DNA of 64,000 bases from Dehalococcoidia bacterium (GTDB taxonomy: Bacteria > Chloroflexota > Dehalococcoidia > Dehalococcoidales > UBA3254), in NCBI GenBank assembly GCA_025361145.1, contig JANYAV010000009.1:1-64000 (forward strand), given 5' to 3'. Below, piece after piece: positions 2,234-63,227 of the stretch. The position numbers and the translations under genes were made by a program. The notes beneath the pieces were generated by a model, which searched no databases, was not told the origin of the DNA, and saw nothing but the letters and a program-made list of their open reading frames with translations. Numbering within the stretch: the first letter of the stretch is position 1; every line of letters begins with the position of its first letter.

Positions 2234-3589
2234 CTACCATCGTTCCGGCTTAGAATTAATGGTTTCCATTCGCTTTATTGAATTTGGGTCTAAGGATAGT
2301 AAATAACTTAGATTAACCGGTTTATAATTAATTACCTCCAAACTCATATTTATCCTTTTATTATTACCATTAATGAAAGGTTCATTACCGTGAACATGGC
2401 CATGGATAATCCATCCTTTCCAGTTCTCAAGTTTCTGTTTCTGCTGTTGAGTCTGATGTTCGTCATTCGGATTTGGATTATGGATAAGTAAGAAGTCATA
2501 TCCGTTTATGTGTATTTCCTGGAAATCTTGGAAGGTTATACCTTCTTCTTTGCCATCATGGCTCCCTTTCACAGACAATATATTACCATGGAGTTGCGAC
2601 TTCCAATATTTTGCTGGTTTATGACCCCATCCAAAGGTCCAATCACCCAAAAAATGAACAGTGTCATTCTTGCCAATTGTGGCATTCCAGTTACTCTTGA
2701 TTGCATTGTTCATCTCGGTCACACTAGAAAAAGGTCTATGTTGGTACTTAATGATATTTTTATGGTCGAAGTGAGTATCACTTATGAGATAGGTAGAACC
2801 ATTTGTGGAACCATTTGATAAAGGCGAAACCTTAGCTTTCGGGGAATTAAATAATTCCAGTAGTCGAGCGACGCTTTTTCGATACCAAGACCGGCTCAAT
2901 GCTTCTCTACGCGACAACAACTTCTTCAGAACCAGGTCGTATTCAAATTGGATACGGTTTTTTCTACCCAAAACTGTCACCCTAAGAAGGTGTAGATTTA
3001 TGTTAGGATAGCTTTGTTCTTCTATCTTAAAAACATATCTTTTAATGATGTTGAATAATCTAAGGATTACAGATGCCTTATGCTGTCTAAAAGTTTCTAA
3101 ACCGCATTTGGTTTCAGCAAATTCAAGTAATTTTTCAAATTTGTCATTGTCTCCTGGAGAGTATTGTCCAATTGATGTGTGAAAATTGTATTTCGAACGG
3201 CGGTCAAATGGTTTGCACGTATCATTTATTAGCTTTTGTGACTTAACTAAGTTCTGAGATAACTCCCATCTAAGCTGTTCAAGCTCCAATGAAGGCTTGA
3301 CATCAAGGAAAAGCCAATTTGCATCCTGATTCTGAAAAGCATCGAACCCGCCAATTTTGAAGGGAACCAGAGTAAAGTTCCGACAGGCCCTCTCAACCTC
3401 AACCATAACCCGTTTGTAGCTATCCGTCTTTGCACCACCAAATAATGATATATGACCTACGAACTTATTCTCTCCTAGTTTTCTTATTTTGAGTCTTTTT
3501 GCTTCTCGATTAACACGTGCCCTAACCCAGGCAGCATACTGTTTAGCGAAGCCACGTAACCTAAATTCAACAAAAATACTTTTAGTCAT
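2234..3589 (-). CDS. 2H-phosphoesterase (2'-5' RNA ligase-like) domain fused to calcineurin-like metallophosphoesterase
   Basis: N-term GHISLFG and FHTSIGQY (two HxS/T motifs); C-term LISDTHFDH, GDWTFG, GSHD, HGHVHG. Confidence 0.8.
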   Translation of the reverse strand: MTKSIFVEFRLRGFAKQYAAWVRARVNREAKRLKIRKLGENKFVGHISLFGGAKTDSYKRVMVEVERACRNFTLVPFKIGGFDAFQNQDANWLFLDVKPSLELEQLRWELSQNLVKSQKLINDTCKPFDRRSKYNFHTSIGQYSPGDNDKFEKLLEFAETKCGLETFRQHKASVILRLFNIIKRYVFKIEEQSYPNINLHLLRVTVLGRKNRIQFEYDLVLKKLLSRREALSRSWYRKSVARLLELFNSPKAKVSPLSNGSTNGSTYLISDTHFDHKNIIKYQHRPFSSVTEMNNAIKSNWNATIGKNDTVHFLGDWTFGWGHKPAKYWKSQLHGNILSVKGSHDGKEEGITFQDFQEIHINGYDFLLIHNPNPNDEHQTQQQKQKLENWKGWIIHGHVHGNEPFINGNNKRINMSLEVINYKPVNLSYLLSLDPNSIKRMETINSKPERW

Positions 3590-5113: not shown

Positions 5114-5818
5114 ATGGTCAAGAGTAAAGATGCGGCTTTAAGAATTGAAAGGGGAAGAATTGACGGATATAGAGAACATGATGAAATATTATTAAAAACT
5201 GATGTCATGGTTATTGGAAGACATTCGAAAGACCTAAAAATAAACGATGAAGTACCTGATTTCGTAGTAAATGACGATTACGTTTCACGTGGTCACATAA
5301 ACATATTCTATAGCTATGACAACGCACGATTTATGGTGAAGGAACGCGACGGCGGAACAACAAATGGGTCCTTCCTTAATGGGGTTCCTTTTGCAGATGG
5401 TATTCCTTGTCCTTTAAAAGATGGGGATTTACTTCAGCTGGCAAAGATCCACGGAAATTATAGGGTGGTGCTTAGATTTAAAGAATCGGAAGGCACTTTA
5501 ATAAATTATTTAGGTATGGAAAAAGATTCAACTCGAGGACTTAAAATCGATTTGGCTGCTCGGCGTGTTTGGATAAATAAGAAAGAAATCCCGTTACGCA
5601 AGAAAGAATTTGATCTATTAGCCTTCCTTTATGAGAACAGTGGTAAGGCATGTAACAAAGATGAGATCGCTGAAAACGTTTGGAAACAAGAGGACGGAAT
5701 AGTAAGTCAAGAAACTATCGAACAGAATATTAGTAGAATTCGCAAGGTAATTGAAACAGATCCTGCTCAACCCAGGTTTGTAACAACCATTCACGGGGGA
5801 TACAGATTAGATATTTAA
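5114..5818 (+). CDS. FHA domain + OmpR-type winged-helix regulator
   Basis: FHA core GRHSKD..VSRGHINI...GTTNGSFLNG; C-term KEFDLLAFLYENSGKACNKDEIAENVW...QNISRIRKVIE. Confidence 0.85.
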   Translation: MVKSKDAALRIERGRIDGYREHDEILLKTDVMVIGRHSKDLKINDEVPDFVVNDDYVSRGHINIFYSYDNARFMVKERDGGTTNGSFLNGVPFADGIPCPLKDGDLLQLAKIHGNYRVVLRFKESEGTLINYLGMEKDSTRGLKIDLAARRVWINKKEIPLRKKEFDLLAFLYENSGKACNKDEIAENVWKQEDGIVSQETIEQNISRIRKVIETDPAQPRFVTTIHGGYRLDI

Positions 5819-5991
5819 TTCAGAATATTTTAGGTTCATATTACACAGAGTCTTAAAATATGAGTTTTTGTCAGTTTCTTGTCAGTAATATTTCAGGACA
5901 AACAAGAATAATAATGATATATTTGCTGCATCTACTAAATAGTAACGTGTCAATGAAAGAATAAACCGAAATTCTGAATTGAAAGCCAGAG

Positions 5992-6534
5992 GTGAAACCG
6001 GTGCATCCAGATAGTGTAAGCGCTGAAGTAAAAAGAATACTGGTAGTTGCCCAACAGGAGTCAGAGAAATTTCATCATTATTATTTGGGTGTAGAACACC
6101 TTTTTATCGCTCTTACCAAAAATAAATCGGGTGTTACTCAAAGAGTTCTGCGAGATTTAAATATAAATCCGAAGCAATTTAGAGATAGTTTAAGGGATTT
6201 TATTGGACAGGGTGATGGTCACCGATATTGGGACGGGATAGTTATTACTCCCAGGTGTCAAATAATCCTTGGACAGGCAAGGGAAGAATCGGAAAATTTA
6301 GGAAAGGAATTAATCGATGAAAAAAGCCTCCTTAATGCTATCTTTAAAGAAGGAGAAGGAATACCAATAAGGGTTCTTGAAGGATTAGGATTTCAAACTC
6401 AAATGATACTGGAGATGATCAATGACTCGACCCTCCAAGTTGAGGTTAACACGGGGCCAGTTTCTGCCGGCGAACAATTAGTACATTTCTCCATTGAAAA
6501 GAAAAAATTTACGTCGGGTGGAAGAAATAATTAG
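5992..6534 (+). CDS. Stand-alone Clp N-terminal domain protein
   Basis: SAEVKRILVVAQQES...YYLGVEHLFIAL and second repeat; no AAA+ domain. Confidence 0.8.
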   Translation: MKPVHPDSVSAEVKRILVVAQQESEKFHHYYLGVEHLFIALTKNKSGVTQRVLRDLNINPKQFRDSLRDFIGQGDGHRYWDGIVITPRCQIILGQAREESENLGKELIDEKSLLNAIFKEGEGIPIRVLEGLGFQTQMILEMINDSTLQVEVNTGPVSAGEQLVHFSIEKKKFTSGGRNN

Positions 6535-6618
6535 ACTCAGTCAGAAGTAATTTTTAACTATTAGTTTATCAGACAAATAAACGGGAATTTTAGAGAAACT
6601 AATTCACAGAAGGTCTAA

Positions 6619-6942
6619 ATGGCAGCGAAAGGCATACTAATCAAGATAATGAGTGGGGTGGAGGATGGGAAGTTATCGGATTTCAGTGAGTTCCCTATTA
6701 CTTTGGGAAGACATCCTGAAGATAATGTCTTTTTACCTTATGATATAAGAACCTCACGGCATCATGCTCAAATAAGCCAAGTAGATAATAACTTTATTTT
6801 AAAGGATATTGGGTCTAATGGGGCGGGAAGTACCAACGGCACCTATCTAAACGAAAAACGTATCACAGGCGAAGCACAGCTTTCATCCGGTGACATGTTC
6901 TTACTCGGGAATGTATGGCTGAAATTCGAATTAAAACCTTAG
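6619..6942 (+). CDS. FHA domain protein
   Basis: LGRHPEDNV...SRHHAQIS...GSTNGTYLNEKRI. Confidence 0.9.
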   Translation: MAAKGILIKIMSGVEDGKLSDFSEFPITLGRHPEDNVFLPYDIRTSRHHAQISQVDNNFILKDIGSNGAGSTNGTYLNEKRITGEAQLSSGDMFLLGNVWLKFELKP

Positions 6943-6973
6943 TGTATAGACACTACTAGGGGCAAGGAACTCA

Positions 6974-8062
6974 ATGCTTTTTAGCGAAGGTCATTCTATC
7001 AATGAGATATGTGAAATCGATCGGTTTCTTGGCGAAGGAGCCTTCGCCGAGGTGTATCGAGTCAAACATAAATATCTAGGCAGACAAGCCATGAAAGTAT
7101 TCAAATCACCGAGTACTTCAGTCAAGGAAATAGAGGAAAAGCTTAGTGAGGCAATAATATTATCAAGGATCGGCCATCCCAATATTATCCGTGTTTTCGA
7201 TGCCGGTACTACACGAGTCACTGAGCGACAACATGGCTTTTTTACGATGGAATATATTGCAGGTGGGAGTCTTGATACTTATTGGAGATCTTATGGATCT
7301 GAATTCATACCCATATCGGAGGTAGTGGAAATTATAATTCAGGTCTGTATGGGCCTATCTGTAGCTCATGCCGAACACCCTCCAATTGTACACCGGGATA
7401 TTAAACCACAAAACATTTTGGTAGGCTACGATACAGGTGGGTTACGTGTCCGTATCGCTGATTTCGGATTGGCTAAGAAAGTAAACCCACTAACTCTTAT
7501 CGCAAGTGCGAAAGGAACACCAGCTTTTAAACCTCCGGAATGCTTGTCTGACATGGATTCTTGTGCAGCAGATGTTTGGGGAATAGGGGCTACGTTTTAT
7601 CTTTTATTGACTGATCATATGCCATTCCCTATAGATAGCAGAATGGAATTTTCGAGTGGGAGCTGTTGGAAGGATCCTTTGGTTCCTGCAAGTCATTTCA
7701 ATGTCCAAGTAGACTAAACGCTAGATTCTATATTAGCTAAATCATTAAAGATAAAACCTGGCGAGCGTTATCCTGATGCCTCAGCAATGTTAGTTGACTT
7801 AAAGAAATGGATACCTTCAAAGTCAAAATTTACTGAAACCATAACAGATGCCAATCCACACAAAAGTACTCTCGGATTATTATCGAAGTCTGATCAGAGC
7901 TCAGCTGAAGAAATGGTAGTTAAAGCGCTAAACCTTTCCCATGACGCAGGTAAATTAATAGAAGCTGCTGATCTATTAGAAGAAGCACTAAATAAATCTC
8001 CTGGAATGAAAGCACAATATGAATATCAATTAAAACTCTGGCGAAGAGGACTAACCATATAA
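6974..8062 (+). pseudogene. Ser/Thr protein kinase with single in-frame TAA (7715-7717)
   Basis: GEGAFAEVY, HRDIKPQN, DFGLA, APE-like; same frame continues TLDSILAKSLKIKPGERYPDASAMLVDLKKW to 8062. Confidence 0.75.
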
Positions 8063-8106
8063 ACTGGCATGACAAGGCGGTAACATAACGAATAAGGAGT
8101 TCCATC

Positions 8107-9684
8107 ATGGTAAATAATTATCATGCGGAGAATATCGACCTAGGAGATAGAGGCAGCGAGATATTGCTTAAAATAGCGAATCCTAACCTGTATCGATTTA
8201 ACTCCTTTCGGATTTTAGAGTTACCCGTGACCGCTTCACCCAGGGAAATATCTTCACAAATACGAAAACTCGATTTGATAGCAAAGTTTGGCAATAATGG
8301 GGTTGCCGACCAAGGCTTTCTAGGTGTCAACCCATCGCCTGACACTGACGCCAGGCAATCCGCACACCAAAGATTAATTGATCCTGAGTACAGATTAATT
8401 GACGAAATATTTTGGTTTTGGCCGCACCAACTAGGATTTGCTAACGACACCGATGAAGCATTAGCAGCACTTAAACATAATGACTTATCCACCGCAATCT
8501 CAATTTGGAAACGGAATGAAGTCGAAGCCAGTGAGGCGCATGTTTCAATGCACAATCTGGCTATCCTGTATCATATTTTAGCCTTGGATCTTGAATATAC
8601 TGAAAAAACACAATCTCTATCAAAAAAACAAATTGAGCAGAAACGATCTTATTGGAGAGAGACTTACCCCAGATGGCAAATTTTAATAAATAATGAGGGG
8701 TTTTGGCAGCGAGTAGAGCAAAGGATCGAAGAACTAGATGATCCTCGCCTTACAAGTGGCACTGCTTACAGAATTCGGTCTGAATTACCCCTGGTAGTGA
8801 TTTCTATCAATGCCATGCTTGCTGCGCAAGCAGCACAAAGAAACAACGATGAAGAGACACTTTTCCATACTAATCTTGTAAATGGTTCAGGATTCGATAA
8901 GGCTGCCATTGAAAATGCTTTGCGGAGCACGGTAGAACCAATACGGGATAGCATTAAAATCCTTTGTACCAATGCAGAAACCGAGACTAATAAATCTCCC
9001 GAACACGCTGATGAGACAGCGGTAAATTTGATAGATAAAACAGCCATATTGTTGAAAACTATTGATAAACTTCTACCAGATGGACATCCTACACGTAACT
9101 CAATACACGATGAGATAGCCTCCCAAATTCTAGGATCTACTGTTAGCTTCGGAAATAAGACAGAAAATCACAGCAAATCGCTAGATCTAGCTAAACGGGC
9201 ATTATCAATTTCCGCGAGTGAATCAGTGAGGCAGAGAATTGAAACGAATATAGAAACGATCACTAATAATTTGAGATACAGCACCTGCTGGTTCTGTGAA
9301 AATAATCGTTCTGAAGATGAAGCGGCACTTAGTGTGAAGATGTACGGCGATGTGGTCCGCTCTGGTAATCAAGTTAGATGGCGCCATTTTCAGGTTCACG
9401 TCCCACGCTGTAAGCAATGCAGATCTATTCACGGAAGAATAACGCTAATCGGCTGGGCAGGAGCCTTATTAGGGATCATTCTGTGGATAGTTGTTGGGGC
9501 AAATACAAATGGATGGATCGGGTTTGCTTTTTTTACAGGATGCTTGATTATCGGATTGATTCTGGCTCCACTTTCCAGGCCCGAGAAAGTCGCAGGGGAA
9601 GGTCATATGAAGCATTTCCCGGACGTTCAGAAATTATTATCGCAAGGCTGGGTTATCGGGGATAAACCGTCCGGGACAAGTTAA
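8107..9684 (+). CDS. J-domain-like N-terminus + alpha-helical region + zinc ribbon + TM protein
   Basis: FRILELPVTASPREISSQIRKLDL...RLIDPEYRLIDEIFWFWP; CWFC...CKQC; two TM helices. Confidence 0.6.
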   Translation: MVNNYHAENIDLGDRGSEILLKIANPNLYRFNSFRILELPVTASPREISSQIRKLDLIAKFGNNGVADQGFLGVNPSPDTDARQSAHQRLIDPEYRLIDEIFWFWPHQLGFANDTDEALAALKHNDLSTAISIWKRNEVEASEAHVSMHNLAILYHILALDLEYTEKTQSLSKKQIEQKRSYWRETYPRWQILINNEGFWQRVEQRIEELDDPRLTSGTAYRIRSELPLVVISINAMLAAQAAQRNNDEETLFHTNLVNGSGFDKAAIENALRSTVEPIRDSIKILCTNAETETNKSPEHADETAVNLIDKTAILLKTIDKLLPDGHPTRNSIHDEIASQILGSTVSFGNKTENHSKSLDLAKRALSISASESVRQRIETNIETITNNLRYSTCWFCENNRSEDEAALSVKMYGDVVRSGNQVRWRHFQVHVPRCKQCRSIHGRITLIGWAGALLGIILWIVVGANTNGWIGFAFFTGCLIIGLILAPLSRPEKVAGEGHMKHFPDVQKLLSQGWVIGDKPSGTS

Positions 9685-9699
9685 AAGTGAGGATTAGCT

Positions 9700-10182
9700 A
9701 TGTTAGAAGGACTACGACAATTTTTTAATTATACTAAAGACTTTAGGATCGCAACACCTAAAGCATCAGATTATCATGACAGTCTGGAGAAGCTGGTCAA
9801 TTTATTGAAATCTCAATTGGCTAATGTTGAATCAACGACTGACAAGGATGATAGCCTGATAAAGTTAAACTCTGAAATCGGGACTGCTGCCTGGAGGCTG
9901 CAACGTAGACTGGCCACAACAGCAGAAACTGCTGATGTAATTAAGAAAGTGGCACGAGATTTGGAGTCAATTTGGGACACGTTAAGTCAGGGGGGTATTG
10001 AGATAAAAGATCAGGTTGGAGAAAAATACGATGGAGGTATGGCGTTAAGTGTCATCGCTTTCCAACCGACTCCTGGTATAACTCAGGAGCAGATTATCGA
10101 AACCATTAAACCGACAATATACTATAAAAATAAAATGGTCCAGATGGGACAGGTAATTGTTGGAGTACCGGAGAAATTATGA
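9700..10182 (+). CDS. GrpE-like nucleotide exchange factor
   Basis: C-terminal IIETIKPTIYYKNKMVQMGQVIVGVP resembles GrpE head; immediately upstream of Hsp70. Confidence 0.6.
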   Translation: MLEGLRQFFNYTKDFRIATPKASDYHDSLEKLVNLLKSQLANVESTTDKDDSLIKLNSEIGTAAWRLQRRLATTAETADVIKKVARDLESIWDTLSQGGIEIKDQVGEKYDGGMALSVIAFQPTPGITQEQIIETIKPTIYYKNKMVQMGQVIVGVPEKL

Positions 10183-10232
10183 TTTGTAATAATCGACAAA
10201 TGACCAGCTAACAAAAAGGAGCGTTAATAAAA

Positions 10233-12725
10233 ATGGAAAGACAAACAATAGATTTTGGCATTGATCTAGGCACTACTAACAGCAAAATTGCCGTGTTTAA
10301 CGGTTCTGGAACAACTGTATTCAAGAATAACGATGAAATGGAATACACGCCATCTGCTGTTTGGATCGACGGCAAAGGGAAAATTTATGTTGGGCGTAAC
10401 GCAAAAGAGCGTTTAGAGATTGATAGCGCGAATGCTTACTCTGAGTTTAAGCTTCAGATGGGAACTTCCAGAGTATATCAATTTGCTGCCAGCGGTCGTC
10501 AAATGCTACCTCAGGAACTTTCAGCAGAAGTCTTGAAATCTTTACGCAATGATGTTGAAAAACGAACCGGTGAGAAAGTGACGAATGCCGTCATCAGTGT
10601 GCCAGCCGCCTTTGAATTGCCGCAGTGTGATGCCACAAACAAAGCCGCCAAGCTGGCAGGTTTATCTTTTAGCCCCCTAATCCAGGAACCAGTGGCCGCT
10701 GCTCTAGCTTATGGATTCCAGAGCAAGAGTGACCGGGTATTCTGGATGGTCTACGATCTAGGAGGTGGTACTTTTGATGTCGCCATCATTCAGGTTCGTG
10801 ACGGTCAAATCCAGGTAGTGAACCATAGTGGTGATAATCATCTAGGGGGAAAGCTTATTGATTGGGAGATTGTGGAAAGATTATTTGTGCCGATACTAAC
10901 CAGAGAATATGCTCTATCTGATTTTAATAGGGCTAATCCCAAATGGAATGCCGCCTTTGCCAAACTGAAACTGAAGGCAGAACAAGCCAAAATCGCATTA
11001 TCAAATGATGATTCTACGGTTATTGCGATTGATCATCTTTGTGTTGATGATAAAGGTGTGCCAATAAATTTTGAATATGACCTTAAGCGCAGTGAATTGG
11101 AGCCTCTCATCGAACCTTTTATAGAGAGATCAATCAATAGGTGTAAAGCAGCTTTGGAAGAAAAAAGGCTATCTCCCGACAACATTGAAAAGTTAATTCT
11201 GGTTGGTGGCCCTACCAGGACACCCATCTTGAAAGATATTCTGAAGGAAAGACTGAAGATACCCCTGGAATTCAGTATGGATCCTTTGACAGTCAATGGC
11301 CAGGGTGCGGCAATATTCGCCCGGACGCAACCGATGCCAAAGGAAACAAACAATAAACATATTCTTATCCCAGGGCAGTATTCTGTGGAACTGAACTATG
11401 AACCTATTGGCAATGATCCCGAACCTATGATAGGCGGGCAAATAACAACATCGGGTGAAAAGTCGCTAAGCGGTTACAAAATCGAATTTGTTGAGATAAA
11501 AACTCGATGGCGCAGCGGAAAGATCACGTTACCGCCCGATGGAAAATTTATGACTTCTGTCCATGCTGGAGAGAAAACAAATGAATTTATAATAGAGTTA
11601 ACCGATGCAACCGGGGATATTTGTAAAGCCATTCCGGATAGATTCAGTTACACGATTGGGATGACGATTTGCAATCAGCCCATTCTCCATTGCATTGGAG
11701 TAGCTTTGGCTAATGGTGAAACACAAATATTTCTGACTAAAGGCACACCATTGCCAGCACATCGGCGAGAAATCCATCGTACCACTGTCTCAGTCAAAAA
11801 AGGAGAGTCTGTTATGCTTCTTCGTATTCCGGTTGTCGAAGGAGAGAATACCAAACACGATGATAGAAATGCCCTAATAGGCAATTTAATAATTACCGGA
11901 GATAAAATTAAACGCGATTTGCCCCTTGGGAGCGAGGTCGAGATAACTATTGATATGGATGAATCACGTTTGTTACGGGTAAAAGCATATATCCCCATTC
12001 TCGATGAGATATTTGAAGACGTCCTGAAGTTAGGCAAAATCGCTGCAGAACCTCAAAAACTAACTGACGATTACAAACGCCAGCAGGAGCGTCTACAAAA
12101 AGTTCGTGAAAATGCTCAACAGATTGGAAATAACCAGGCTGATAAACCCATACAGAAGATTGAAGACGAAAGCATGTTACATGATATTGAAACCTCACTT
12201 GCCGCTGCGCCTGCTGATCCAGATGCTGCGGATAAGTGCCAGAAGCGGCTCATTGATTTAAAAATTGTGCTTGATGAAGCCGAAGATGCTCTGGAAAGAC
12301 CTCTAATTATTTCTAAAGCCAGAAGTGAAATAGAGGGCATACGCGGAATAGTTGAGAAATTTGGCGATGCTGAAGAAAAACAGAACTTTAGTGCTTTGGA
12401 AAAAGAAATTAACGCTGCCATAGATTCTAATGATGCTGATCTAATCAAACAAAAATTAGAATACCTGGATGGATTATATTGGAGAATTTGTTTCGCGCAA
12501 CCGGGATGGTGGGTTTCTCAAATTGAGAATCTCGAACAGAGAAAACCACACATGCGAGACCAGCAACTAGCGGAAAGACTCTTAATACAGGGGAAAAGTG
12601 CCATTGATTCTAATAACTTTGATGTCTTAAAGACAGTTGTACGTCAACTTATCGGTCTTCTTCCGACAAATGAGCAACAAGAGGTGCAGGGGTACGGCGG
12701 CACTACCATGCCAATTAACGGATAA
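10233..12725 (+). CDS. Hsp70/DnaK-family protein (divergent)
   Basis: FGIDLGTTNSKIAVFNG, VYDLGGGTFDVAII, LVGGPTRTPILKD. Confidence 0.95.
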   Translation: MERQTIDFGIDLGTTNSKIAVFNGSGTTVFKNNDEMEYTPSAVWIDGKGKIYVGRNAKERLEIDSANAYSEFKLQMGTSRVYQFAASGRQMLPQELSAEVLKSLRNDVEKRTGEKVTNAVISVPAAFELPQCDATNKAAKLAGLSFSPLIQEPVAAALAYGFQSKSDRVFWMVYDLGGGTFDVAIIQVRDGQIQVVNHSGDNHLGGKLIDWEIVERLFVPILTREYALSDFNRANPKWNAAFAKLKLKAEQAKIALSNDDSTVIAIDHLCVDDKGVPINFEYDLKRSELEPLIEPFIERSINRCKAALEEKRLSPDNIEKLILVGGPTRTPILKDILKERLKIPLEFSMDPLTVNGQGAAIFARTQPMPKETNNKHILIPGQYSVELNYEPIGNDPEPMIGGQITTSGEKSLSGYKIEFVEIKTRWRSGKITLPPDGKFMTSVHAGEKTNEFIIELTDATGDICKAIPDRFSYTIGMTICNQPILHCIGVALANGETQIFLTKGTPLPAHRREIHRTTVSVKKGESVMLLRIPVVEGENTKHDDRNALIGNLIITGDKIKRDLPLGSEVEITIDMDESRLLRVKAYIPILDEIFEDVLKLGKIAAEPQKLTDDYKRQQERLQKVRENAQQIGNNQADKPIQKIEDESMLHDIETSLAAAPADPDAADKCQKRLIDLKIVLDEAEDALERPLIISKARSEIEGIRGIVEKFGDAEEKQNFSALEKEINAAIDSNDADLIKQKLEYLDGLYWRICFAQPGWWVSQIENLEQRKPHMRDQQLAERLLIQGKSAIDSNNFDVLKTVVRQLIGLLPTNEQQEVQGYGGTTMPING

Positions 12726-12740
12726 GGAAGGGTTAAAGCA

Positions 12741-13085
12741 ATGAAAGTAAATATGACAGAGAAAATGAATCTTCCTCCTAAGCTTCAAGAGAACTCAGAC
12801 ACATTTAATGAATCGCTGAATAGTTTAATAGAATCCGGCATACTCGCCAGAGCAGCTGACCTGGCAAGAAAGGGTGAACTGCACCAGGCTGAGCTTCTTC
12901 TGCAACCTTTGACCAACAAACCAGAGGCACCAGTATATATTCTTGATCTGCTCGCAAAGGTATATGTACAGCAGAAAAAAGTAAAAGAAGCACAGGCAGC
13001 ATGGTTACGCGCTTTGCAAATGGAACCATCAAATAAACACACATTGAGAGCGCTTATGCGTTGTGCCGAATTACTTACAAATTAA
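12741..13085 (+). CDS. TPR protein
   Basis: AARKGELHQAELLLQPL...YVQQKKVKEAQAAWLRALQMEPSN. Confidence 0.7.
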   Translation: MKVNMTEKMNLPPKLQENSDTFNESLNSLIESGILARAADLARKGELHQAELLLQPLTNKPEAPVYILDLLAKVYVQQKKVKEAQAAWLRALQMEPSNKHTLRALMRCAELLTN

Positions 13086-13274
13086 CCCCTAAATATTTGA
13101 TTTAACCAAGAGATGAGATTTAATAATTATTCAATTAAGATTAATGTTTAAGATAATAATATTAAAGGTGATTGAAATAATATGGATAACGGTAATAAAC
13201 AGAAGATTTTGGGCTAAATGGGTATAGCTTGTTTTACGATTTTTGAAGACAAAACCAACAACAGGAGAACAAAG

Positions 13275-13820
13275 GTGAAAACAGAGAGGATAGTAAGAAT
13301 AACCATTGCTATTATCATCGTTGTTGGTTTGATACTAATCTATAATCAATATTCCAACAATCCGTTAGTAAAGGTGCAAGCATTAACAGACTCGATTTCA
13401 ACGCAGCTGGTATCAAGAATTTCTAACGCATCTCCGTCTAACCTAAATTATTTCAAATCGGCGCCCGTATTAGTTGTATGGTCAGATACAGGGAAAGTCT
13501 GTACTGATATCCAGGAGCTAATCCCTTCTTCTAACTGGCCCAAAACGATCGATAATATCAATAATGGATATTTAGTGAGCATCAAGAAAACGACAGGCGA
13601 GTCGGATAAGTATGGATCCTCTTACAACTATGTCATGGGCTATCAAGTAGTTTATGCCGTTTCCGTTATATACAACGGCCAGAGCGTAAAGCAGATTACA
13701 TTTGCGGGCGAAAGTTTACCCATGTCTATAAATGTTGACTCAAGTAATAGGGCCCCTTGGTATGGCGATCCGCCATCTAATAGTGTTATCGCAGATTGGA
13801 TAAAAACAACGTTGAAGTAA
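13275..13820 (+). CDS. Membrane-anchored hypothetical protein
   Basis: GTG start with aggag SD; N-term TM IVRITIAIIIVVGLILI. Confidence 0.6.
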   Translation: MKTERIVRITIAIIIVVGLILIYNQYSNNPLVKVQALTDSISTQLVSRISNASPSNLNYFKSAPVLVVWSDTGKVCTDIQELIPSSNWPKTIDNINNGYLVSIKKTTGESDKYGSSYNYVMGYQVVYAVSVIYNGQSVKQITFAGESLPMSINVDSSNRAPWYGDPPSNSVIADWIKTTLK

Positions 13821-13898: not shown

Positions 13899-15110
13899 AT
13901 GAAAACTGGCGTTAGCTTAATTACATCACTATTAATAGTACTAATAATTGTCTCTACAGCTTGTTCAACCCCACCGGCACCTATTTACATGCCAATAATC
14001 GAGGAAACGACGGCTACTGCTACATACTCAACGCCATTAACACAGATTAGTCCTATTGCCACAGGGATATCATCTACAACCACACCAAGCAGTAGCACTG
14101 GTAAAACTACAATCCCATCTACATCAAAAACTGCCCAACCAGCAAACCTATATCGGAGCAAACTTGTAGAAATTGCCACTTCATTAGTAAATGATGTTTT
14201 GCCATTAACGAGTATTCAGCATTCAGATGAAGAAGCCATGACACTTTTTCGGGACAAGTTGATAAATAAGGGAATAGCAGCCAGCCTGGTTAAGATAAAT
14301 TCCAGATTAGGCGCAGATGGAAATCTTAATTACTGTATCGCTGTAAATACCATGGATCAAGGAATCGTTTTCTTGTACATCCTACCGAAAGAATTGGACT
14401 TAAACGATGAGGACTATAGATTACAACAAGTATATCTTACTTCTAATGAAAGAGTGGGTTTATTACCTGTTAAATTCGCTAATTTAAATGATTATACATG
14501 GTATAAAACATATCTTGAAAATCTATATAAAAATTGGGATTATTCTGAATATCTTAGCGAATACGGCGATATCGTTGACAAAAATAAAGTAGAGCTTGAA
14601 ACACTTAGTTCGCAAATTGATAAATTAATTGATTTCGCAGAAAATCCAAATATAATTAGTTATGATTCTGGAATGTCTCAAAATCAAATAGATACCAAGT
14701 ACAATTCACTTTTAGATGAAGTTCAAGCTCGAATAGATCAATTCAATATCTATAATGAACAATGTAACGTTCAAATTGATGAATTCAATGCTAGTGTCGC
14801 GTCTGATGAAATTGAATCTAATAGATATCCCCACGAACTTTTCTATATTGAAGAATATTACACAAATCCTAATAATTTATATCCCTTGATTTCGATTCCA
14901 ACACCATTCAATTATAAGATCATTACACCAGTTCCGTTTGCAACAGCCCGTGTGCCATATACAATAGACACCTACCTAAATGCATTGCAAATAATGGTCA
15001 ATCGAGATTACTCATTTAGTCTGCTTCCAGCACCTTTTGAAAAAGATTTTAAAGCTGACAGGGTAACAGATAAAAACTTTGTGGTAGATGATTATGATAT
15101 TCGGTGGTAG
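13899..15110 (+). CDS. Putative lipoprotein, hypothetical
   Basis: Lipobox STACS; Thr/Ser-rich linker. Confidence 0.7.
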   Translation: MKTGVSLITSLLIVLIIVSTACSTPPAPIYMPIIEETTATATYSTPLTQISPIATGISSTTTPSSSTGKTTIPSTSKTAQPANLYRSKLVEIATSLVNDVLPLTSIQHSDEEAMTLFRDKLINKGIAASLVKINSRLGADGNLNYCIAVNTMDQGIVFLYILPKELDLNDEDYRLQQVYLTSNERVGLLPVKFANLNDYTWYKTYLENLYKNWDYSEYLSEYGDIVDKNKVELETLSSQIDKLIDFAENPNIISYDSGMSQNQIDTKYNSLLDEVQARIDQFNIYNEQCNVQIDEFNASVASDEIESNRYPHELFYIEEYYTNPNNLYPLISIPTPFNYKIITPVPFATARVPYTIDTYLNALQIMVNRDYSFSLLPAPFEKDFKADRVTDKNFVVDDYDIRW

Positions 15111-15765: not shown

Positions 15766-17850
15766 ATGTCAATGTTTCCAAAACCAACACCAAATAGACC
15801 TTATTGCAGAAAACACGGCATTGAATACTCTGGATATATATGTCCCGAATGCGCTCAAGAACTTAGGAAAAAAGCTGAATTAAAAAAATCAGCTAGTATC
15901 CAAAATGCTAATAATGAGGAAAAAGAACTTAACGAATATCGTCCGCCTGTATTGTGCCCAAAATGCCTCGAAAAATCCCTATTCTATAACCAAAACGAAG
16001 ATGCTTTTGAGTGCCTAAATGTGAAATGTAAGGTACAGGGTAAAACGGTAAAGGAAATAGAAGATAAAGTAAAATCATCTTTATATGATAAGACTGAACA
16101 AGAGAGGTTGATTTTCAATAAAAAAGAAGGAGAAAGACAAAATAATATTCGACAAACGGAACCAAACAGCAAGAAGAATAAAAGTGATACGCCAGAAAGT
16201 TTGGCGAGTAAACCAGTTATCGCAACCAACACTGCGGGTGCGAAAGGGGGAGTTAAAGGTTCAGGTGGTAACAAAACTAAACAACCCATTCCTAGGTGGA
16301 TGATACCTTTATTGTTAATATTTGCTCTTTCATTCGTCGGCGTTGGAATCAGTATATTTGTTGGAACAACCATTCCATTTTGGATATTGTTTGGATTCGG
16401 CTGCATATTTTCACTTGAGAAATGGTTTAGTCATGATACGAGGAAGCATAAAGGAGTTGGAAAGCTATATAGATTTCTTTTAAATCTTTCGATACTATTA
16501 CTGCTTGGTCTCCTCATTTGGACGGGTATAAAATTGTTCTCGCAACAATTCCTTCAAAGCTCGCTTGCAGGGAGTCTGGTATTTCTTGCTGAATTAGTTC
16601 TCTTTATCTGGATGTGGAAAGTTGTTGCTAAGAATAGTTGGCGCTGGCCAAGCATGAAATTGACAGTATTTACCCTGGTGTGCCTAGGTATGATATTTGC
16701 CTTTGCTGGTGTGCAACCTATGACCAGTTATAAAGATAGGACTGCTTCTTTCTTTGCTTCTATTTCAAGTTCCTCATCGGAACCAGTGACTTCGTCAACC
16801 ACTCCGACTACTCCGCTGGTGACCAAACCGCCGAGTATTACGCAACATGCAACAGCTGTACCAACAATATTATCAATTAAACCGCCAGTTCCATTCACAT
16901 CACCGATAGCTCCTGTAATAAATGATATCATCCCCGGAAATACTTCAAATATTAATACGAGCGCATTTCAAACAATTGACCAGTATGCGCTAGGAACTCC
17001 GGAGTCTGTTACAAAATCCATCGACGCCTTGGCATCTTACCTAGTACAGCCAGCAACGAATGACTTAGAAAAAACTCGAGCAATCTATCGATGGGTTACC
17101 CAGAACATATCCTACGATTTTTCAGCGTATTTGAGTGGAAGATATGGGAGCACCAAGGCAGCAGACGTTCTGACAAGTCGAAGCTCCATATGTGAAGGCT
17201 ACTCTGGTCTTTTTAACGCATTGGCAAAATCTGCGGGATTAGAAGTGGTTACTATTAGCGGCTGGGCTAAGGGATATAGTTATAACGCAGGTGATAAAAT
17301 AACTGGACCAACAAATCATGCTTGGAATGCGGTAAAGATAAATGGTGGTTGGTACTTAATAGATAGCACTTGGGGAGCTGGTTCTATAGTTCAGCAAAAA
17401 TTTGTTCGTGATTTTGATGAAGCGTATTTTCTTACTCCTCCAGAGCAGTTTATTTATAATCACTTACCAGAAGACTCCAAATGGCAGCTGTTAAATCCAC
17501 CTTATACAAAAAGCCAGTTCGCAGCTCTACCGTACGTATATTCAAGTTTTTTCAGTTACGGATTGGGGTTGGGTAATAATACTCAATGCATCATTAGTGC
17601 GAATAGTAATTTGAATATGATATTCCCAGTCCCAAATGACGTTTATTTGATGGCTCAATTAAGTCAGAATAATATTGATCTTGCAGACTCACTGACATCT
17701 GCACATAAGTCAGGAAATCAATATCAAATTAATGCTACATTCCCCAAAACTGGTGACTACGTTTTAAGTATATATGCTCGTAAGGGCGACGAATTTGGAA
17801 CGTATCAAGGTGTACTAGAATACAAGGTTGTTGTAAATAGCATTCCATAG
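15766..17850 (+). CDS. Zinc-ribbon + TM + transglutaminase-like protein
   Basis: N-term CXXC pairs; TRAIYRWVTQNISYD...SSICEGYSGLFNALAKSAG...NHAWNAVKINGGWYLIDSTWG. Confidence 0.85.
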   Translation: MSMFPKPTPNRPYCRKHGIEYSGYICPECAQELRKKAELKKSASIQNANNEEKELNEYRPPVLCPKCLEKSLFYNQNEDAFECLNVKCKVQGKTVKEIEDKVKSSLYDKTEQERLIFNKKEGERQNNIRQTEPNSKKNKSDTPESLASKPVIATNTAGAKGGVKGSGGNKTKQPIPRWMIPLLLIFALSFVGVGISIFVGTTIPFWILFGFGCIFSLEKWFSHDTRKHKGVGKLYRFLLNLSILLLLGLLIWTGIKLFSQQFLQSSLAGSLVFLAELVLFIWMWKVVAKNSWRWPSMKLTVFTLVCLGMIFAFAGVQPMTSYKDRTASFFASISSSSSEPVTSSTTPTTPLVTKPPSITQHATAVPTILSIKPPVPFTSPIAPVINDIIPGNTSNINTSAFQTIDQYALGTPESVTKSIDALASYLVQPATNDLEKTRAIYRWVTQNISYDFSAYLSGRYGSTKAADVLTSRSSICEGYSGLFNALAKSAGLEVVTISGWAKGYSYNAGDKITGPTNHAWNAVKINGGWYLIDSTWGAGSIVQQKFVRDFDEAYFLTPPEQFIYNHLPEDSKWQLLNPPYTKSQFAALPYVYSSFFSYGLGLGNNTQCIISANSNLNMIFPVPNDVYLMAQLSQNNIDLADSLTSAHKSGNQYQINATFPKTGDYVLSIYARKGDEFGTYQGVLEYKVVVNSIP

Positions 17851-18700: not shown

Positions 18701-19042
18701 ATGAAATGCAGTTATCATCCTAACCAAGAAGCAATGGCTTTTTGTGTGACTTGTGGAAAACCAGTGTGCTCAGAATGCAGCATTCTCCTTCAGGATAATA
18801 AAATGCATTGTAAGCAATGTCTTGTTAATGGTGACGTCCAAATTTATGGCACAAGCTCCTGGGCATGGTGGTTATTACCAACTTTACTGGGAATCGTTGG
18901 CGGGTTAATTGCCTTTTTTGCAAATTCCAACAAGACACACCGGCTCAAATATATAAGGCGAAGTGATTATCTAATCGTTGGACTTATCTCAACCTTAGTT
19001 GTGATTATTTGGTATGCCATAGGATATGATGCGGGATACTGA
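18701..19042 (+). CDS. B-box-like zinc finger membrane protein
   Basis: MKCSYHPNQEAMAFCVTCGKPVCSECS...HCKQC + TM. Confidence 0.75.
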   Translation: MKCSYHPNQEAMAFCVTCGKPVCSECSILLQDNKMHCKQCLVNGDVQIYGTSSWAWWLLPTLLGIVGGLIAFFANSNKTHRLKYIRRSDYLIVGLISTLVVIIWYAIGYDAGY

Positions 19043-19080: not shown

Positions 19081-19704
19081 ATGAAATGTTCTTATCATCC
19101 TGATCTGGAAGCAGTTTCAGCTTGCTCTAATTGCGGAAGACTTGTCTGTCAAGATTGTCAATCTATTAATAATGAAAAAAGCTATTGTAAAGCGTGCGCA
19201 GAAAATCTCGCACTAACTCCACAAGATAAAAGAACAACTCTCAACTGGTTTCAAAAGCATTTAAATTGGACATGGGTATTAGCGATAGCTCTTACTTTTA
19301 TCATTGGTGTTATTTTGGGTATTATTTTGGTTTTTACTGGTGCTTATTATAGTATGAGCGAAGCCGAGATCGATGGGTGGGACCGTTTGATAAATATTCT
19401 TATAATGGTGCCTGTTTCTTTATGGGTATTACATCGTAAAAATAGAAGTTGGGGTTGGATATTTTTATCTGGAATATTTGCCCCATTATGGTTATCCAAT
19501 AAAAGAGAGGAATATGTTTTTACTTCTCATTATGGTTCTGCTTTAACTAATCAAGATAGTTGGAAATCGCAATCGGAAACATATTGTCCGTATTGTAATA
19601 AAAGTGTTTCGGCTCATCAATCAAACAATATAGTTGACTATTATTGGTGTTCGAATTGTAATAAGGCTCTGAAACCCAATGATGTCTTTGTGGCCGAAGG
19701 GTAA
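19081..19704 (+). CDS. B-box-like zinc finger membrane protein with C-terminal zinc ribbon
   Basis: MKCSYHPDLEAVSACSNCGRLVCQDC; CPYCNKSVSAHQSNNIVDYYWCSNCNKALKPND. Confidence 0.75.
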   Translation: MKCSYHPDLEAVSACSNCGRLVCQDCQSINNEKSYCKACAENLALTPQDKRTTLNWFQKHLNWTWVLAIALTFIIGVILGIILVFTGAYYSMSEAEIDGWDRLINILIMVPVSLWVLHRKNRSWGWIFLSGIFAPLWLSNKREEYVFTSHYGSALTNQDSWKSQSETYCPYCNKSVSAHQSNNIVDYYWCSNCNKALKPNDVFVAEG

Positions 19705-61250: not shown

Positions 61251-61345
61251 GGGGGCAGAGAGGTTCCGGTGGGCTTCGCAGGCTTCAAACCTGTTGGAGG
61301 GCACTTTGTGTCTTTGGTGGGTTCGACTCCCATCTGCTCCCGCCA
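61251..61345 (+). tRNA. selC: tRNA-Sec (TCA anticodon)
   Basis: 8-bp acceptor GGGGGCAG/CTGCTCCC, G73, long variable arm, TCA at 61285-61287, CCA; beside selB. Confidence 0.95.
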
Positions 61346-61364: not shown

Positions 61365-63227
61365 TTATCCCTTGGTACCTGCTACCCTATCATCCCCAAC
61401 CCTTCGGGTAAGTCTCTTTTCGTCCATGTGGTCCAGAAGCGCCTGAGTGAATTTACGACTGTTCTGAAACATATTCCTGACTTCAGCCAAAGTGACTTTC
61501 CCATTTTGCTTGATAAGGGCTAAAACTTGGGTGGTCATCGTCCCATAAGCTGAGGTTAAAAAGGTGACCCCCGCGGTGGTTTTAACCACCAGACCTTTCT
61601 CGACTAAAAGATTAAGTAGATCTGGTTCCAAAACCATATTCGGGGAAGGGGAAAAAGGATTTTCAGCTAGCTCATTTAAATAAGTATCGATTTGGGTTTG
61701 CTGTTGAGAGGTAAGCTGGATTTGATAACTGGACAATGAAATCAAGCCCGATCTTTCCACCAGTAATTTTTCAGTTAGCAATTTTTTTATAACTTCAGAA
61801 GACCATGATCCCAGTTTTATTTTATTTGCAACTTCGGCTTTAGGGATGCCTATTCTGAGAGGATATTTGCGATGAAAATCAGTCACGATAACCGCAATAT
61901 TATCTACCACTCGTCCCCAACCTGAATCTGTTAAGATCAGACTGTCTGTCCCTCCCCCAAAAGAGACTAATTTACCTTGCTGAATCAGATTATCTACGGC
62001 CCTTTGCATAATCTTGGGGTCCATGTTGTTCAAGGCTAATAGCTTTTCCCTTTCCAGAGACTGTTTGTTTTTAAAAGCCCCCAATATGATTTCCTCTATC
62101 TTCCCTTCACTTCTAGTCTTAAGGTTAGCAATAATCTCAGGACGAAAACGCTGATAACGTTTTTCGGGATGAACTTCCAGAATAATACCGCCTCCAAGAG
62201 TATCGTTGGGAGAACGGACTACATAATGGTCATTATTAACCGCGGCCAGAGGACTATCTAAGACAAACTGAACCCAGGTGGTTTCACCAGGCTTAATTTC
62301 TTCTTTTTCCAGCAAACGTATTCGGGCGATAACCTCCGCAGACCCAGTGTGAAAACTCACCTCGGTATTATGGCGCAATGGACGATTAGGCTGAGGCAAC
62401 AAACAAAACCTTGCATCTAATAAAGTGGTTGTCTGCAACCAACCAGGTTTGGTAAGCACATCCCCTCTTTTTACTTCCGCGGGGCTTACGCCCGTCAAAT
62501 TAACTGCCACGCGACTTCCGGAAACGACACTCTGAAGCGGGGTTTTATGTGTTTGCAAACCCCTAACACGGGATTTGAGACCTGTTGGCAGTATTTCTAC
62601 TTCCTGATCAACCGTTAACCTGCCATCAATCAGGGTCCCGGTTACTACAGTTCCCGTACCCAGGATCGTAAATACTCGATCGATGGGTAATCTGGGTTTA
62701 CCAATATCCCGGCGGGGAAGGGAGGAATTCAGCTCGCGCTCTATAGTTGCTTTCAGTTCAGAGAGTCCCTGTCCAGTGATTGAAGATACTGCGACAACTG
62801 GAGCTTGCGCAAAACTGGTCGACTGCAGCAATTCCTCAATCTCCATTCCCACGAAAGTAATCTGATCCTGATCAACCAGGTCAGATTGAGTAATCACAAC
62901 CACAGCCTTGGGCACTTCCATGAGGTCGAGGATGGCAAGATGTTCGCGAGTCTGCTGTTTGATGGATTCATTAGCAGATACCACAAGCAGAACCAAATCC
63001 ATGCTGCTAACCCCTGCCAGCATGTTATTAATAAAATGCTCATGACCGGGGACATCGATCACACCCACTTCAAGGCCGCCCGGTAATTTTAACCAGGCAA
63101 AACCCAATTCGATCGTCATCTCCCTGGCTTTCTCTTCAGCCAGACGATCTGGATCGATACCAGTCAAAGCATGAACCAGAGTAGATTTTCCATGGTCAAC
63201 ATGACCGGCGGTACCTATGACGAACAA
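61365..63227 (-). CDS. selB: Selenocysteine-specific elongation factor
   Basis: GTAGHVDHGKSTLVHALTGIDPDRLAEEKAREMTIELGFAWLKLPGG; C-terminal winged-helix region. Confidence 0.95.
   Translation of the reverse strand: MFVIGTAGHVDHGKSTLVHALTGIDPDRLAEEKAREMTIELGFAWLKLPGGLEVGVIDVPGHEHFINNMLAGVSSMDLVLLVVSANESIKQQTREHLAILDLMEVPKAVVVITQSDLVDQDQITFVGMEIEELLQSTSFAQAPVVAVSSITGQGLSELKATIERELNSSLPRRDIGKPRLPIDRVFTILGTGTVVTGTLIDGRLTVDQEVEILPTGLKSRVRGLQTHKTPLQSVVSGSRVAVNLTGVSPAEVKRGDVLTKPGWLQTTTLLDARFCLLPQPNRPLRHNTEVSFHTGSAEVIARIRLLEKEEIKPGETTWVQFVLDSPLAAVNNDHYVVRSPNDTLGGGIILEVHPEKRYQRFRPEIIANLKTRSEGKIEEIILGAFKNKQSLEREKLLALNNMDPKIMQRAVDNLIQQGKLVSFGGGTDSLILTDSGWGRVVDNIAVIVTDFHRKYPLRIGIPKAEVANKIKLGSWSSEVIKKLLTEKLLVERSGLISLSSYQIQLTSQQQTQIDTYLNELAENPFSPSPNMVLEPDLLNLLVEKGLVVKTTAGVTFLTSAYGTMTTQVLALIKQNGKVTLAEVRNMFQNSRKFTQALLDHMDEKRLTRRVGDDRVAGTKG

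Follow-up and report, generated by a model that had tools for sequence, protein, structure and literature searches.

An extra, kinase-linked Hsp70 gene set lacking both sides of the canonical J protein-Hsp70 switch: a candidate membrane-tethered chaperone machine

How might an Hsp70 be driven when the contacts that normally switch it on are gone? In well-studied Hsp70s the drive comes from a J protein, acting via the HPD motif, R167 and the interdomain linker. The question is raised by eight genes at positions 5114-13085 of the window, by which we mean the whole stretch of DNA analyzed here, the first 64 kb of one contig of a Dehalococcoidia bacterium genome (1.70 Mb, 25 contigs). A first-pass annotation of this DNA had described the genes as co-directional and had assigned their domains, which is borne out by the open frames, all on the forward strand, and for most genes by Pfam; the kinase frame is the one with an interruption, and the intergenic gaps measure 15 to 173 bp. 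Five of the genes form a core with gaps of only 15 to 50 bp: they encode a Ser/Thr kinase with a conserved C-terminal helical tail (6974-8062), a J-like protein (8107-9684), a GrpE-like nucleotide exchange factor (9700-10182), an Hsp70 (10233-12725) and a short TPR protein (12741-13085; Pfam TPR_2, just under the cut-off). Since the housekeeping grpE-dnaK-dnaJ genes of the host lie on another contig, the chaperone set of the cluster is an extra one. We lean toward reading it as a kinase-controlled Hsp70 machine that is tethered to the membrane and triggered in a non-canonical way.

The Hsp70 is where the departure from the canonical scheme is most visible. Its nucleotide-binding domain (NBD) is clear by sequence and by fold (Pfam HSP70, 274 bits; Foldseek to DnaK, 2e-27), and it has the phosphate and adenosine motifs (GIDLGTTNS, QEPVAAALAYG and DLGGGTFD); the ATPase motifs are kept in the Hsp70s of all eight loci in which we find the core. 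The DnaK equivalog model TIGR02350 gives 282 bits, below its cut-off of 822. Between the NBD and the beta part of the substrate-binding domain lie 16 residues in two DnaKs and 108-112 in each of the eight proteins, none of which retains the VLLLD linker; in its place stands a beta-rich segment about 95 residues longer, which in the window spans about residues 367-476 (11331-11660) and draws just weak Ig-type Pfam matches. Seven of the proteins have Pro at the R167 position and the eighth (L061) has Gln, R151 is substituted throughout, and K155 is conserved in none. The C-terminal helical region is extended, with a C-terminal part of about 230 residues versus 146 in DnaK. Loss of D481 was considered as well and dropped, as the two DnaK comparators carry Asn at the presumed position. 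One relative, L004, has a second Hsp70 gene (7740-8984), NBD only, directly before the full-length copy.

The partner protein is altered on the matching side. The first-pass annotation had called it J-like "without an obvious HPD", which is correct and holds in all eight loci. It combines an HPD-less J domain with a long helical middle, a CWFC...CxxC motif and, by hydropathy, two C-terminal hydrophobic helices; in L045 (8015-9862) a terminal CFI-box-CTERM domain stands in place of the Cys and membrane-helix region. Searches of Pfam, NCBIfam and PDB sequences returned no significant match, and the J-domain call is supported by profile-profile comparison: against a reference set of three J domains from the host genome and E. 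coli DnaJ, CbpA and HscB, hhalign scores the N-terminus at 37.2, where 200 shuffles of the columns reach no more than 19.4, and at 39.1 with eight members in the profile. The neighboring GrpE-like gene is present in all eight loci, with its frame broken in the contig of L005. The Pfam match to GrpE is sub-threshold (19.3 bits versus a cut-off of 25.8), and hhalign of its C-terminal part to GrpE gives 29.0 against a shuffle maximum of 26.5, and 27.9 with seven members, a weakly supported and suggestive similarity.

Asp35 of HPD, R167 and D393 of the linker form a single contact network that triggers hydrolysis (PMC7289447, PMC8215388, PMC6843406). With R167 and the linker absent from the Hsp70 and HPD absent from the J-like protein, the canonical J-Hsp70 switch has lost its two sides jointly. 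Of the new observations made here, this paired loss within single operons is the strongest; neither the linker insert nor the joint loss had been seen in the first-pass annotation.

The core is complete or nearly so in the eight loci, namely the window, L004, L005, L006, L007, L045, L059 and L061 (L044 and L047 duplicate the contigs of L004 and L006), which belong to Chloroflexota and to metagenome-assembled genomes labelled Phycisphaerae and Acetobacteraceae. Scanning genome contigs with the Hsp70 as query yielded four relatives at 49-56% identity; L008, from the same scan, proved to be an ordinary DnaK and was dropped. Profile searches added L045 from the class of the host, plus two loci (L059 and L061) from the phylum to which the Phycisphaerae-labelled genome with L007 belongs. 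Gene order is constant but for L061, which has its kinase gene after that of the Hsp70, and the TPR gene of L007 runs off its contig. The pairwise identities of the five core proteins correlate across loci (r = 0.71-0.91), as expected for proteins that travel together, though general divergence adds to this; in a tree, a fully supported branch unites the module Hsp70s to the exclusion of two DnaKs, L061 being a long branch. The "Acetobacteraceae" contig, L005, may be mis-binned; it carries a single PurA, 44% identical to both other groups. Recurrence of the core in seven other loci is more than chance, and the dedicated Hsp70 set with its kinase that had been proposed is kept as a unit in distant genomes, separate from housekeeping dnaK-grpE-dnaJ.

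The module is rare. The J-like profile matched over the J-like body in 4 of 393 genomes of the host's class (plus one C-terminal-only match) and in 4 of 248 genomes of the phylum of L007's genome, two of these being the new complete cores; it matched in 1 of 399 genomes sampled from the host's phylum and in 1 of 398 from the phylum of L005's genome, where two more matches were marginal. The J-like protein alone as query found no other match in 61 close relatives and the 399 phylum genomes, and no module copy was found in the viral contigs, phages and plasmids searched. Our count leaves out L046, L060 and L062, which lack a module Hsp70 and have no more than a J-like protein or just the C-terminal domain of one; at L046 (4964-8123), an FHA-winged-helix gene lies beside a membrane Ser/Thr kinase and a zinc-ribbon protein that has the C-terminal domain of the J-like proteins, possibly a related system without Hsp70.

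The remaining three genes of the cluster are more local. They encode a putative phospho-threonine-reading regulator in which an FHA domain is joined to an OmpR/PhoB-type winged helix (5114-5818; Pfam FHA 38.7 bits, Trans_reg_C 66.7 bits), a stand-alone Clp N-domain protein (5992-6534; Clp_N 55.9 bits) and a small FHA protein (6619-6942; FHA 58.8 bits) in which the usual GR...SRHH...NGT residues are visible. The FHA-winged-helix gene has a counterpart in one other locus (L004, 31% identical), making two of eight, and Clp_N occurs in the window only; these are therefore accessories, and the two-FHA picture is local. Of the neighborhood expected to be conserved (Hsp70, kinase, FHA and Clp_N), the Hsp70 and kinase part recurs, and the proposed FHA readers and regulator, present as described in the window, fall outside the core. 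A separate FHA gene lies downstream in L059, and L045 is adjoined by a divergently transcribed complete HSP100 gene, the N-terminus of which aligns weakly with the Clp_N protein of the window.

The kinase (Pkinase, 142 bits) is unbroken in all seven related loci. In the window it is a single 362-codon frame with an in-frame TAA at codon 248 (7715-7717), a stop overlooked when the kinase was first assigned; the catalytic motifs lie upstream of it, and the sequence past it (7718-8062) matches the kinase tail of the relatives. The kinase of this strain is probably truncated, barring a sequencing or assembly error. Another feature that the first-pass annotation had missed is the apparent anchoring to membrane and wall. 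Hydropathy indicates C-terminal membrane helices in most of the J-like proteins and one membrane helix in five of the TPR relatives examined, and in three of those five the C-terminus carries a further region: LysM in L004, BON plus LysM in L005 and an OmpA-like one in L045 (sub-threshold). The gene next after the window TPR gene (13218-13820) carries a hydrophobic helix, and no frame link between the two was found.

The module is likely mobile, because in three relatives the core has genes for an integrase or type IV secretion close by: TrbL and VirB4-like genes directly downstream in L004; a tyrosine integrase, a replication-relaxation protein and a coupling-protein-like gene at L045; and an integrase within about 7 kb at L061. 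In the window, G+C is 0.41 around the module versus 0.465 beyond 22 kb. These neighbors and the lower local G+C make the "genomic island" of the earlier description plausible; an empty site was sought in a same-genus genome, whose matching contig is only 4.5 kb.

We envisage a dedicated, probably mobile Hsp70 machine that would be fixed at the cytoplasmic membrane, with a Ser/Thr kinase of its own in control. Tethering and the choice of envelope clients would fall to the J-like protein, which has C-terminal membrane helices in most copies, and to the TPR protein, with its membrane helix and sometimes a wall-binding domain; the Hsp70 would bind and release the clients with ATP, the GrpE-like protein resetting it. 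Since none of HPD, R167 and the VLLLD/D393 linker is left, the usual contact among them would not be the trigger of hydrolysis; hydrolysis would probably be gated via the insert domain, with the J-like protein as a non-canonical partner or by phosphorylation from the kinase. Where FHA proteins are present they would read the phosphorylation, the FHA-winged-helix protein relaying the state to transcription in the way that EmbR serves PknH, and Clp_N, or the whole HSP100 in one relative, could link the machine to unfolding or disaggregation. The sequences themselves establish the gene content, its conservation, the lost motifs and the hydrophobic helices; complex formation, either form of gating, the clients and the benefit to the cell are steps that we infer. 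A broader proposal, which we put forward tentatively and rate as somewhat unlikely, is that these proteins constitute a separate class of Hsp70 machine, tethered to membrane and wall and spread by mobile elements, in which the HPD-R167-linker switch has been replaced as a unit by a gate of insert domain and phosphorylation. The observations suggest that an Hsp70 can be driven by a route other than the standard on-switch: a family without HPD, R167 and linker that has J-like and GrpE-like proteins and ATPase motifs is a natural test of alternative gating, and of whether phosphorylation can gate an Hsp70. If true, bacterial Ser/Thr kinase signaling would be tied to a dedicated envelope chaperone.

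Several points weigh against a membrane-tethered, kinase-controlled machine. The kinase of the window is the interrupted one, its TPR protein has no membrane helix, and no wall domain was recognised in the TPR protein of L061. The fold of the insert is uncertain, since the predicted structure of the Hsp70 is of poor quality (mean pLDDT, the predicted local distance difference test, of 65). The J-domain identity depends on the profile comparison: when 8107-9684 was compared structurally with J domains, as the first-pass annotation had proposed, Foldseek with the whole low-confidence AlphaFold model (mean pLDDT 72, J region poor) found no J domain, the favorable evidence being the hhalign score of 37.2 versus 19.4. 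Helical-repeat Foldseek matches of the same model, at E about 0.03 or worse, were not used. The GrpE similarity is weak, and no client gene is common to all loci.

These points have to be set beside what other explanations would predict. If the cluster were an ordinary extra heat-shock operon working like DnaK-DnaJ-GrpE, the presence of Hsp70, GrpE-like and J-like proteins and of conserved ATPase motifs would follow directly; loss of HPD, R167 and linker in eight of eight loci, with an insert replacing the linker, would not, nor would the constant presence of the kinase and TPR genes or the membrane helices, and we consider this very unlikely indeed. The mobile surroundings raise the different prospect that the module is cargo serving its own element, for example by folding or assembling its secretion or surface proteins. 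The TrbL and VirB4-like genes at L004, the coupling-protein-like gene and integrase of L045 and the genes for secreted InlB-repeat proteins close to the core of three loci (the window, L006 and L007) would suit such a role; the surroundings of the core in the window, L005, L006, L007 and L059 showed no transfer genes, and no non-core gene is common to all loci, which leaves the cargo role quite unlikely.

The same mobility, together with a rare and patchy distribution, would also fit a defense or conflict system in which the chaperone sets the threshold for a membrane-acting effector, with a logic akin to that of GAP1-N2 GTPase systems, whose described neighborhoods combine HSP70, GrpE and DnaJ or TPR proteins with cell-wall domains (PMC7159879, in its account of these themes). 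L004, L045 and L061 lie beside genes for an integrase, a replication-relaxation or coupling protein or type IV secretion, which speaks for it, as does the NBD-only Hsp70 of L004, which some GAP1-N2 systems also have. Against it, GAP1-N2 was not found in the host genome, a simple motif scan of the module loci found no GTPase-like gene with P-loop plus NKxD, the module has no known effector domain, and strong PADLOC matches were confined to the kinase domain, which is generic. We regard a defense function as unlikely, though less so than a cargo role.

Further genes around the module were noted in their own right. Divergent InlB B-repeat secreted or membrane proteins are encoded at 791-1846 in the window, where opposite-strand genes separate the gene from the module, at 7057-8031 in L006 and at 1-783 in L007. 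The window also encodes a 2'-5' RNA ligase-like domain joined to a calcineurin-like phosphoesterase domain (2234-3589, minus strand), a membrane protein with a transglutaminase-like core, a KY-type Ig-like domain and a zinc-ribbon-looking N-terminus (15766-17850), tandem small membrane proteins with B-box-like zinc fingers (18701-19042 and 19081-19704, the second under the Pfam cut-off) and, far downstream, a tRNA-SeC (61251-61345) beside a gene resembling selB (61365-63227), followed by one resembling part of selA. Similar-looking coiled-coil genes downstream, at 13899 in the window and 3110 in L045, were seen by eye.

We found no description of the module in the open-access literature, subscription papers being outside the search, and its parts are best understood beside systems that share some of them. 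With DnaK-DnaJ-GrpE it shares the three-part logic, the NBD motifs and the overall Hsp70 layout; it differs in the replaced linker, the loss of R151, R167 and HPD, the longer C-terminal part and the kinase and TPR partners. HscC and HscA are likewise specialised Hsp70s with their own J-type partners, and HscC with DjlB/DjlC has been suggested to act on membrane proteins; those proteins keep most of the allosteric residues and dispense with GrpE (PMC8215388), whereas the module does the reverse. The mitochondrial import motor (mtHsp70, Mge1/GrpE, Pam18 and Pam16/Magmas) is also membrane-bound, with a GrpE and an HPD-less J-like protein (PMC8605242); the module lacks an HPD-bearing partner or translocase, and homology is not claimed. 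DnaK1-DnaJ3-GrpE of motile cyanobacteria offers a dedicated Hsp70 set at an envelope machine, the type IV pilus motors; a kinase-linked operon is not mentioned in the abstract of PMC9239167, and pilus genes were not recognised near the module. For the accessory regulator the parallel is EmbR, in which an OmpR-type winged helix and an FHA domain work with the Ser/Thr kinase PknH (PMC4601284), with the domain order reversed in the window protein, where the BTA domain was not found.

The closest published neighborhoods are those of the HSP70/GrpE theme of GAP1-N2 systems (Kaur et al. 2020, PMC7159879). The passages on this theme describe HSP70 and GrpE together with a TPR protein or one bearing a DnaJ domain, with membrane and wall-binding domains and, in some systems, with an additional Hsp70 reduced to the NBD; they do not mention a linker insert or HPD loss. 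The module differs in having its kinase in the core and no GTPase or GAP1, and no FNIII-repeat protein was recognised. Because that GTPase/GAP1 core was not found, we do not file the module with GAP1-N2 systems. According to the same account, a separate theme of GAP1-N2 systems carries a protein kinase, and the systems occur also in chloroflexi and planctomycetes; the module may work like them.

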